Source: Hirudo medicinalis (taxonomy: Eukaryota > Annelida > Clitellata > Hirudinida > Hirudinidae). From it: a stretch of 64,000 nucleotides of DNA. The notes beneath the pieces were generated by a model. That model was not told the DNA's origin and did not search any database. It saw only the letters and a program-made list of their open reading frames with translations. The translations under genes and the position numbers were made by a program. The stretch covers positions 239,164-303,163 of the forward strand of contig MPNW01000121.1 in NCBI GenBank assembly GCA_011800805.1. The letters are read 5' to 3'. This document shows, one piece after another, positions 49,175 to 56,322 of the stretch. Position 1 is the first letter of the stretch. Every line of letters starts with the position of its first letter.

Positions 49175-52100
49175 TTACGAGAATAAAGTATGCATAATGC
49201 ATGAGGCACTGACCGAAACTTCTTCTGGACCAGTCACCGATTGGATGGCTCTGGATCTGAGCTGATCGATCAACTTTTCGGCCACGTTGGCTCTCGTTTC
49301 TGCCTCCTCCAAGTCACTCTGCATCTTCCTGTATTTGGCCAGGTTGATCTCAGAAAGTTGTTCCTGCAATACACATTTATTGTAATTAGGCCATATTATG
49401 CTAATGTTAGCTATTTCCGACCAATCATACGGATTCATCTAGCAATATTAATATGACAATATTCCAATCAAATAGATTGGGTGTACCTATTCAATAAAAT
49501 AATCTTCACTTTATTGAACTCTGTTGAGTTAATGTATTTTTCGTTCAATTTGTCTTATAATGTTGAAGAAATTGAAACAGAATAAGCAAAAATAATGGAT
49601 GATGCAGTGGATGCAAATCAACTTTTATGAAATGTTCAAGTGAAACCAACTCACAGCATCATCAAGTTGTTTTTTGTAGCCCTTGATTTTGACTTGCATC
49701 TTGTCAAGGAGATCGTTCAACCTGCTTTGTGCCCTCTGCTGCTCTTCAGCATGGAGATCAAGTTCGTGCAACTTCCTCTCCTGCTTCCTGACTGACTTAT
49801 CCTTCTCCAGGACCTTCTGCCTCTCGTTCTCGAGCTCTGACTCGAGGTCGTGTACTCTCTGCTCGATGCGAACCCAGGCTGCTTTGCCACCGGACACTGC
49901 CATCTGTTCTGTGGCATCCAATCTTGCCTGTATTAGATCAAAGAATGCATGAGATTCTCGGAAAAATTAGTTTATGATCGAAAAAGAATAATTACTCTCA
50001 ACCATAAAAAGGGTTCGAAGTTAATTCTAAAATTGAAAACATTAAAAAAAAAGTTAATAAATCCACAAAGTACCTGAAGATCTTTTATTTGGAGTTCAAG
50101 GATTCTCTTGACTTTCTCCAATTCACCAGTTCGTGCCTGTTCACGTTTGAACTCCTCAGTGAGTTGGTTGGAATCATTTGTGGCCTTCTTCAAGGCATCT
50201 TCCAATCTCTTCATGTTCAGTTGGTGGTCTTCATTCTCGCTCTGACGAGAATAGTTTATTGTAATGTTTACGAATAATTTATTACAATGTTTATAATTAT
50301 TATTATTTTTATAAAGCACCATAAAGCGTGAGCATCGGGGAGCTTAGAGTGTTGCTTTCACTGTCGCTCGCAGGAACGCAATTAACTCTGAGCTAGTTTG
50401 CAGACCAAGAATAATGAATAATTATTAATTAGTAACTTTATCTACCCTGGTCTGCTGGAAATTGTTTTCCAGTTTCTTCTTGATTGTGGAGAGGTTCGAA
50501 CAGTTGGCGTTAAGTTCGTTGATTTTTGCGGTTGCATCCTTCAACTCACTCTCCATCATTCTCCTGTTCCTGTCCAACGAGTCAACTTGGAGTCTGAGAA
50601 CATCCACCTCATCCTTGAGAGAGTCGCTCTTCTGCATATGATTCTGCAGTTCTTCCTCTGCTTTCTTCCTCATCTGCTCCTCGTCTTCAAAGAGAGCCTG
50701 CAAAATCCACTCACATTTGATCCAACTCATCTCAGTATTCGATGCTTTAATCAAATAACTAATCAACTCGCGAAGCAAAAGTTCTCAATTAAGAACAAAA
50801 TAATGAAAACAATTCCTCACTTGGAGGTCGACAAGTTGCTGCTGATACTTCTTGTGGATCTTGTCTGTGTCTCCCCTGGATTTGTTCATCCTGTCGATGG
50901 CCAGTTCAAGGTCACTGACCTTTTGTTCAAGTTCCTTCTTGGCTCTCAAAGCTTCCAGTTTGTTCTTTGATTCTCCGTCCAAAGTGGCTTGCATGTTCGC
51001 CAAGACTTTGTTCTGGGACTTCCTTTAGAAGTAATTCTATTCCTTCAATGCTTAGTTAAATAATAAGTGAATTTGTGAAGCGCCATAAGCGTAACCATCA
51101 GGAGCGCTTAGACCATTTATATAGCGCCGTGACCAAGATGCGCTTTGTGGCGCTGCAAGCTGGGTTGCGAACACGAGACGTAACGACTACTGCTTTTACA
51201 GTCGTTCGCAGAAACGCAAACCCTTTGAGCCAACTTGCACCCCCGACATATTCGACATTACTTAAAATGTAAAATAAAAGTTATTTAACATCCAGCAATT
51301 AACATTAATTAATTTTTAACATCCCTCACTGGTAATGACTGTTAACAAATTAATAATCCATATAAGTTCTACTTTAAAATTCAAGTTGACCTCTAAATGC
51401 CCTGGAAAAATAAACAACCTCATTTCGTCCATTTCTTCATCTTTTTCATAAAGCCTCCTTTCAAAGTCGTCCCTGGCGAGCACAACGTCCTGTTGAGCCC
51501 TCACAACCTTTGCTGCCTCCTTCTGAATGGCCAAGTCCTTCTCGCCAATGATGTTGTTCAGTTCTTGCTTTTCTGTTTCCAGCTTCTTGACGGTCTTTTC
51601 CATGTCCACGAGTTTCTGACCGGAGTGATCCAACTGCTGTTGGATGTCTCCAATTTCGACTGGAAAGCGTTGTCAAGTTAAGATAAACTTTTGGCAAAGT
51701 ATGCAATAAATCGTTTAATGTGCAAATATTCAGTTACCCGACAGGTTTTTGTTTTCCCTTTTCAATCTTTCACTCAATTCCTTGGCCTCGTCCAATTGGT
51801 GACCGACCTTGACTGTCTCTTCCGCCTCAACCTTGGCTTCCTTGTTTGCTTCTTCCAGTTCAGTTTGTAGGTCTTCAACTTTCTTCTTCCAATCCTCGAT
51901 GATCTTCTCGTACTGCTTGTGACGTTTTTCGTGCATAACAATTTCGTTTTGCAGCTGTTTAAAATTTAAGCCTTCGATTTGAAAATCACTGAAGAAAATA
52001 AGTAAATATGTAAACGTTTGTTTGTCTCCGACCTTTTCAATTTCCTCTTTGAGGACTTCCGCTGCAGCGTGTGCCTGACCTCTGGCTTTGTCCAAAGCCA

Positions 52101-55100: not shown

Positions 55101-56322
55101 TTTCATTTATATTTCCTCTAAATGAAAACTTTATATATAAAGTTTATATCAACACCGAGCAACGTTTATTACATAATCATTTGTTTCCAGCAATGTGCTT
55201 GTTGCCAGTTATTAACATTCATTGACAGGTTGATTTGATGATTACATTTATAAATATGCTAACTTAATTAATTATTCAGTTACCTGTTTGTGGAGTGCAT
55301 CCTGTGCATCCTCCAACTTTTCCTTGAGAATGTTAATCTCCCTCTGCATATCGAGCCTCTGCTTCTCACCCTGCATCACATCGCCACAAACAAATCTAAA
55401 CATTCCAAGCACTGGTAATGTATTTTACTGATCACTAATTTATTACATTAAGTTTATTATCATAATTTCCAACCTTTACACGGTTCGATTTTTCATTTTC
55501 TAGTTCAGTTTCCAAGTCTCTGATTCTCGTCTGCAGCAGATAATTATTGCGAGTCAAGAATAGCAGACGGTTAAAAATATTATTTAAAAATCATTACACC
55601 TACATCGAGTATGGATTTTGCCGATCCCTTCTGAGAAAAATCAGTCAGATAAGGACTGCTGGAGGAGGTGTACTGAGAGGAAGCAGACGTGTAATCAGTA
55701 CTTGGGGCGTATGCACTTCTCGAACCAAGACTTGAAGTGTATGGGGAAGGTGACGAAAGTCCGTAAGAATCGGACAGGAACGAATAACTCGAAGGTTTGT
55801 AGGTCGAACCAGAGGATAAGGCTGCCATCCTTGCTGCTATTTCCTTGTCCAAGTCGTCTTCATCGATCTTAACAGAGGAAGTCAGCCTGGTTGAGGTTGT
55901 CGATGAGAGAGCATCGGGTTCAAGCGCAATCTTTTTGTTCATAAACTTTGTCATCGTCACAATCGAAGACTGAGGAGCACTGACGGGAGCAGATGGACTC
56001 TTGGATTCGTCCAAATCACTGCTCCATTTGTTCGTGACAACCTCGCTTTCGCCGGCATCGCCCAAGCCGACTGCAGATTGGAAAAGCAATGGAAAATAAA
56101 ATCCATTTGAAAAAATGTAAAAGTAATTTGCAATAAATTAATAATTGCATAAATAAGTACTTAACATGCAAGCTCGAGTTTATGATCACCTGTCGTTTTG
56201 ACGACATCGACTTTGACATCACCATTCTGCAGAGCATCTTCGTTTGCTGAAACTTTGGCATCGCTCGACATTTCTTCCACGACTTCAACTTTGCTTTGAA
56301 CTTCGACTTCACTCTCAGACAT
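49175..56322 (-). CDS. Headless myosin rod protein (catchin/myorod-like)
   Basis: Sixteen exons: 56190-56322, 55604-56070, 55474-55530, 55284-55370, 54704-54870, 54419-54497, 53943-54164, 52285-52474, 52033-52181, 51738-51954, 51419-51659, 50821-51022, 50446-50697, 50074-50241, 49655-49927, 49175-49363. They sum to 1030 aa. The first two exons encode exactly 200 residues: an acidic start (MSESEVEVQSKVEVVEE) and a Ser/Tyr-rich region near 130-190. From residue 201 all is coiled coil that follows muscle myosin heavy-chain rod rather than paramyosin, including EDWKKKVED, RENKNL, NMQATLDGE and LEEAETRANVAEKLIDQLR. Such proteins copolymerise in thick filaments of molluscan muscle. There they come from an internal promoter of the myosin gene. 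No motor exons are seen upstream here. Confidence 0.88.
50305..50400 (+). repeat. Short interspersed repeat (SINE-like), deleted copy 4
   Basis: AAGCGTGAGCATCGGGGAGC joined directly to TCGCTCGCAGGAACGCAA, the two ends of the family without the middle. It is in a myosin rod intron. Confidence 0.5.
51065..51250 (+). repeat. Short interspersed repeat (SINE-like), copy 3
   Basis: AAGCGTAACCATCAGGAGCGC, TTATATAGCGCCG, GCTGGGTTGCGAACACGAG and CGTTCGCAGAAACGCAAAC in order. The most complete copy for the left half of the family; located in a myosin rod intron. Confidence 0.65.
52651..52790. repeat. Direct duplicate A flanking the ankyrin insert
   Basis: TAATTGTAGGAGCAACACGA and the following bases, through the CAA/AAT tract, repeat almost exactly at 53812-53932. 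Confidence 0.9.
52860..53000. repeat. (TTA)n/(TCA)n microsatellite
   Basis: Long interrupted ATT and ATC repeats inside the segment between the two direct duplicates. Confidence 0.85.
53458..53568 (-). CDS. Isolated ankyrin-repeat exon inside a myosin rod intron
   Basis: A 111-base open segment with perfect splice borders on the minus strand: CAACAG before it and GAG-gtgagt after it. It encodes one ankyrin repeat: DGKTALHHAILQG, LDIARLLIQCGANVN, IKDE. It is unrelated to the coiled coil, and splicing it in would put an ankyrin repeat into the rod between exons 53943 and 52474. Phase is 0 at both ends, so it would not break the frame. The surrounding duplicate sequences and a single N at 53811 make a contig misjoin more likely than a real alternative exon. 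Confidence 0.6.
53685..53811. repeat. (TAC)n microsatellite ending at a one-base N
   Basis: About 125 bases of perfect TAC repeat stop at a single N, immediately followed by direct duplicate B. This is a typical contig end. Confidence 0.95.
53812..53932. repeat. Direct duplicate B flanking the ankyrin insert
   Basis: Near-identical to 52651-52790 from its first base after the N. It leads directly into myosin rod exon 53943-54164. Confidence 0.9.

Follow-up and report, generated by a model that had tools for sequence, protein, structure and literature searches.

The gene described here lies in a 64,000-nucleotide stretch of the genome of the leech Hirudo medicinalis (GenBank assembly GCA_011800805.1; 133 Mb in 1557 contigs), positions 239164-303163 of contig MPNW01000121.1, or C121. 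This whole stretch is called the window, and positions given without a contig are counted within it. On the minus strand, 17 exons spanning 56322 to 48763 join into a coding sequence of 3132 nt, which encodes a protein of 1043 amino acids (aa): a serine-rich head (residues 1-200), a muscle-myosin-type rod (residues 201-1024) and a short tailpiece. Every exon join is in frame, with GT-AG borders and no internal stops. The start codon is the ATG at 56322, and an upstream in-frame stop is found four codons away. The initial annotation had joined sixteen exons in frame; the frame stands but the count does not, as exon 17 (48763-48822) lies outside the range it gave. At a probability of roughly 0.75, the locus is read from its sequence as a duplicated, fast-evolving, stand-alone and motor-less paralogue of the leech's own muscle myosin heavy chains (MHCs), a catchin-like protein of the thick filament. 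The parts of the gene are:

56190-56322, minus strand: exon 1, start codon and the acidic part of the head (aa 1-44); donor CAG/GTGATC
55604-56070, minus strand: exon 2, the remainder of the head, Ser/Tyr-rich
55474-55530, minus strand: exon 3, where the rod begins; the 5' border lies at the intron position of heavy-chain residue 1115, phase 0 (1115.0)
55284-55370, minus strand: exon 4, rod
54704-54870, minus strand: exon 5, rod
54419-54497, minus strand: exon 6, rod
53943-54164, minus strand: exon 7, rod
52475-53942, minus strand: intron 7, with one N, a 123-bp direct repeat and an ankyrin-like exon
52285-52474, minus strand: exon 8, rod; weak acceptor AATAAG, placed through a gap-free alignment
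52033-52199, minus strand: exon 9, rod
51738-51954, minus strand: exon 10, rod
51419-51659, minus strand: exon 11, rod
50821-51022, minus strand: exon 12, rod
50446-50697, minus strand: exon 13, rod
50074-50241, minus strand: exon 14, rod
49655-49927, minus strand: exon 15, rod
49214-49363, minus strand: exon 16, end of the rod
48763-48822, minus strand: exon 17, a short tailpiece with the stop codon, read in frame from the acceptor CTACAG

The head is encoded by exons 1 and 2, in agreement with the initial annotation, which had described a 200-residue non-motor N-terminus on exons of its own. It is of low complexity, with 46 serines, and its last 72 residues contain 26 Ser and 8 Tyr. The coding frame of the head is free of stops and scores +0.28 bits/codon. 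In the remaining two sense frames there are 6 and 10 stops, and both score below zero; one antisense frame scores +0.38 yet holds 9 stops. The head sequence occurs once in the leech genome, the next match being at E=3. A protein-database search for relatives of the head gave none at E<=10 among 3545 candidates, a set for which the presence of catchin was not established. The head is predicted to be disordered and would be exposed on the filament surface.

The rod, 824 residues long, matches Pfam Myosin_tail_1 over residues 199-1012 (E=6.1e-71). When aligned with the heavy chains of solved structures, 812 of its residues correspond to heavy-chain residues ~1113 to ~1923; the leech rod has one residue more. 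It scores 433 bits to 8u95, 407 to Myosin-7, and 138-159 to five smooth/nonmuscle chains; 8u95 is presumably Drosophila. Because the muscle chains score far above the smooth/nonmuscle ones, the rod is of the muscle type. It is shorter than the full rod first proposed: it starts at heavy-chain residue ~1115, the first ~270 post-motor residues are absent, and what is left is roughly the C-terminal three quarters of a muscle-myosin rod.

A search of the leech genome for the myosin-tail family matched at least eight contigs (43 of the 86 candidates were scored; the window's own exons were not listed), and the eight were read by spliced protein-to-DNA alignment. Separate motor-bearing muscle heavy chains, which had been sought as a check on the locus, do exist, at least three of them: among the matches listed, C587, C132 and C665, all on contigs other than C121. 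Their rods are 52% identical to the Hyalella rod, and their motors 59.7, 62.1 and 61.3% identical to the Hyalella motor. Three further genes among these matches, C529, C81 and C246, are nonmuscle-type myosin II. Two of the reference chains, P0004 and P0005, are taken by us to be nonmuscle; C529, C81 and C246 are 44-51% identical to these and 26-29% identical to two crustacean muscle rods. The last two in this set, C609 and C536, are paramyosin-like (36.3 and 36.5% to the Hyalella rod) and group with a C. elegans paramyosin (support 89.8/88). No motor match at E<=0.1 was found beside the C609 and C536 rods in the stretches examined, the C609 rod starting ~400 bases from its contig end.

The leech's muscle MHCs are the closest relatives of the rod by identity (39.0, 38.9 and 37.8%). 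Identity is 31.7-36.6% to five other muscle MHC rods, 28.1% to the nematode paramyosin, 24.8 and 25.8% to the leech's own paramyosin-like genes, and 22.3 and 24.1% to two of its three nonmuscle rods. An earlier comparison gave 24.7-36.6% for muscle-type rods; its low end came from the divergent nematode P0003 (24.7%) and the short fragment P0002 (26.2%), both omitted from the later identity tables. The query and the three leech muscle MHCs have in common a one-residue insertion near the end of exon 8, which is absent from the other 10 of the 14 rods aligned, including all three paramyosin rods.

Identity to MHC was by itself no guide. The C. elegans paramyosin is also nearer to MHC than to the query, so mere closeness to MHC proved nothing. 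Trees built without the leech's other sequences were undecided: the approximately unbiased (AU) test rejected none of 9 topologies at 5%. With those sequences added, 5 of 11 topologies were kept (p 0.19-0.67), all placing the query beside or inside the leech muscle clade, and the other 6 were rejected (p 6e-5 to 3.5e-3). Kinship with paramyosin, the placement named in advance as the one that would speak against MHC descent, was rejected at p=5.9e-5 and 7.3e-4 in this run and at 2.2e-4 in a second. The second run used 11 sequences and 795 columns (the C. elegans paramyosin, MYH7 and Drosophila were dropped, and columns were kept only if they had no more than one gap); 3 of its 6 topologies were kept and 3 rejected at p<=0.003. 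The trees give no resolution as to which of C587, C132 and C665 is nearest. The query branch is long, 1.2 substitutions/site against 0.21-0.26 for the leech MHCs, or about five times longer.

Rod introns were compared separately; of the 16 introns in the gene, 14 rod introns were examined. Nine of these 14 match the leech muscle MHCs in position and phase, and 8 match the leech paramyosins, or 9 when the C536 acceptor at 1115.0 (read by eye) is counted. One query intron, 1163.0, is common to the paramyosins only and was not found in the leech muscle MHCs. The introns, as part of the sequence evidence, mark the gene as a descendant of the MHC/paramyosin family and do not choose between the two. 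They lend some substance to a divergent paramyosin with an unusually long head, a reading also favored by the headlessness of paramyosin itself and by the early, undecided tree. Paramyosin identity was rejected once the leech's own sequences had been added: C609 and C536 exist as separate genes, they are 25-26% identical to the rod compared with 38-39% for the leech MHCs, the AU tests reject the grouping, and none of the three aligned paramyosin rods carries the insertion. This alternative is thus highly improbable, and the rod very probably originated from the leech's own muscle MHC.

The junction of head and rod falls at intron position 1115.0, which is present in C132 and C665 and absent in C587. 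The introns at 1115 are 80 bp in C132 and 210 bp in C665, and the neighboring introns of C587 are 81 and 183 bp. Introns of this size in the leech MHC genes are too short to hold a catchin-type first exon. The possibility that a catchin exon resides within these genes was rejected for this lack of intron room near 1115, and because no second head-like copy was found in the genome (next E=3, as above).

The head and rod could still belong to a larger myosin gene, with the head as an alternative first exon and distant upstream motor exons spliced onto exon 3, as in the MHC genes that produce catchin. The border at which exon 3 starts is of phase 0, and MHC genes have an intron there too. A search of the 64-kb window with four heavy-chain motors as queries gave nothing better than E=1.1, which bears out the initial statement that about 3 kb upstream of the gene holds no motor exon. 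The flanks examined were 20 kb upstream and 10 kb downstream of the window and a further 5 kb beyond; ~4.9 kb of the flank reads N. In these flanks, a crustacean motor query matched one exon at C121:322939-323109, and more exons of the same motor follow in the further 5 kb. This motor is on the same strand, ~27 kb upstream of the rod gene, and IQ-like motifs come after it (by eye). With its first exon, myosin X (60 bits), VIIa (57) and XV (56) score above class II, which reaches at most 40. Its second exon separates the classes poorly, with 91 bits to Vc and 90 to XV as against 85 to Dictyostelium myosin II and 80 to muscle chains. The two are 40% and 51% identical to the Hyalella motor, as against ~60-62% overall for the leech's own muscle motors. 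By these scores, clear for exon one and less so for exon two, the flanking gene looks like an unconventional myosin, and it is the only motor found in these flanks. A separate gene also stands in between, and at least three motor-bearing muscle MHC genes exist elsewhere. A larger myosin gene is therefore very unlikely.

That intervening gene, the next one upstream on the same strand, contains RabGAP-TBC and SH3 pieces. The initial annotation had placed SGSM3 here in the same orientation; the strand and domain content agree, and the gene is best called SGSM3-like. Two similar copies of what is apparently its last exon, ending HHLFSWD and YHLFSWD, were seen by eye at 59290-59475 and 60040-60189 on the minus strand. 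Also in the window are a tRNA gene at 28968-29038 (minus strand, 38.6 bits), which is its sole Rfam match; an open frame of 335 aa at 45570-46577 (plus strand) with one hydrophobic stretch, judged by eye, and no Pfam match; and a diverged short interspersed repeat (75-85%) at 25651-25893 and, in an intron of the rod gene, at 51042-51188.

Intron 7 is unusual. The two copies of its 123-bp direct repeat (52651-52773 and 53812-53933, 97.6% identical) flank ~1 kb and adjoin the single N at 53811; the N and the repeat are likely an assembly join. The protein alignment passes the site without a gap. An ankyrin-repeat exon with plausible splice sites lies inside the intron at 53461-53568 on the minus strand, and looks like part of another gene or a misplaced piece. 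The possible misassembly and the microsatellites of this intron, together with the fast divergence of the rod, might indicate a decaying duplicate that lost its function recently and kept its frame by chance. At ~60% aa difference from the leech MHCs, however, all 17 exons and 1043 codons remain open, no splice dinucleotide is damaged and the residue classes have been kept, so that decay is most improbable.

Conservation of residue class was scored at sites where the three leech muscle MHCs agree. The query retains the class at 149 of 182 hydrophobic, 109 of 132 positive and 135 of 169 negative sites (80-83%); for Hyalella the corresponding numbers are 161, 125 and 160. Charge has a period of 28/3, with a power of 5.97 versus 0.99+-0.44 in shuffled sequences. 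The query favors staggers of 98, 294 and 490 residues both with itself and with the leech MHCs, and mostly not those of 196 and 392. For the query against C132, the mean z at 98/294/490 is 2.30 versus 0.78+-0.61 in 200 shuffles. This retention and the 28-residue charge periodicity are what filament packing needs. They speak against a rod that has left muscle to become a neofunctionalized coiled-coil scaffold outside thick filaments, its head recruiting other partners. The long branch and a head found once in the genome would suit such a scaffold, which is nonetheless unlikely. The rod probably co-assembles with myosin in filaments, judging from the charge and core patterns.

The following mechanism can be proposed. 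The rod would have been duplicated and freed from the motor at intron position 1115.0. The protein would form a two-chain coiled coil and co-polymerize with myosin, and possibly with paramyosin, in thick filaments through charge staggers at odd multiples of 98 residues. The disordered head would sit where the motor would otherwise be, lowering motor density, and could serve as a contact, switched by phosphorylation, to actin or to neighboring filaments. A role of this kind is reported for molluscan myorod/catchin in PMC4410989 and PMC12040844. A like function for the leech head is the least certain step and can be suggested only tentatively.

Several points weigh against a thick-filament paralogue of MHC. 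The gene, with its putative muscle role, is read from genome sequence. The paramyosin-like C536 nearly equals the query in class retention (146 of 182, 92 of 132 and 127 of 169 sites), hence this retention speaks for a filament rod and not for an MHC origin. The intron matches of the leech paramyosins, and position 1163.0 in particular, belong here as well. The stagger signal is modest, the best of the 200 shuffles reaching 2.57, and with C665 a stagger of 98 ranks 45 of 580. A changed function is possible given the long branch, and the role of the head is drawn by analogy because the head is without a detectable relative. The duplication of an MHC rod into an independent locus, one of two origins offered by the initial annotation, is supported by the motor-bearing MHCs on at least three other contigs, the tree, the insertion and the intron at 1115.0.

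Most of the headless myosin rods known are either splice products (catchin, and the myosin rod protein, MRP) or paramyosin. The kind is thus an established one, and Lottia gigantea Mhc8 is the only stand-alone catchin-type gene noticed in the parts of the literature examined. What appears to be new, within that literature, is a stand-alone gene with a two-exon head of its own, strong divergence of the rod, and likely parents whose introns are too short for a catchin exon. A single genome here displays the probable parents, the precise exon border and the new head together, so that how a motor protein turns into a purely structural filament protein can be tested directly. Such a gene would also provide a natural route to altered motor density in thick filaments with the motor genes untouched.

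According to PMC3912159, catchin begins at a fixed position in the MHC genes of molluscs. It is conceivable, though speculative, that position ~1115, phase 0, is a repeated cut point at which the rods of paramyosin, catchin, Lottia Mhc8 and the leech gene were freed several times. In the leech, MHC splicing would then have handed the catchin role over entirely to a separate gene that evolves fast and has acquired a new head, replaying the origin of paramyosin.

The leech gene is close to catchin in design but is not catchin by gene origin. Molluscan catchin/myorod is likewise motor-less, with a comparable non-helical head, 156 unique residues joined to the last ~830 of muscle MHC, and its rod starts at about the same place; the mollusc border is taken from PMC12040844 and PMC5963113. 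The leech rod, unlike that of catchin, is on a separate gene and contig, is 61-62% different from the leech's own MHCs, and has a head with no detected relative. Lottia Mhc8 is described in PMC3912159 as an expressed tail-only myosin gene that starts exactly at the catchin start. That gene belongs to a tandem MHC array and has no catchin N-terminal exon, whereas the leech gene has a two-exon head of 200 aa and the leech MHCs were found on C587, C132 and C665. C. elegans Y11D7A.14 was considered as a lead; the passages of PMC2375026 examined do not call it headless.

Paramyosin resembles the leech gene in being a separate gene for a headless rod, and the rod of the leech's own C536 starts at 1115.0; it is a distinct clade by the AU test, and the leech already has two paramyosin-like genes of its own. 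Drosophila MRP is another motor-less rod product with a new N-terminus. Its rod starts just past the light-chain-binding domain, ~260 residues before that of catchin, unlike the leech rod, which starts at ~1115. With respect to the muscle class-II heavy chain, the leech rod belongs to the muscle-MHC clade and no class-II motor was found in the window, so that the protein is a headless derivative of a heavy chain and not itself a heavy chain.

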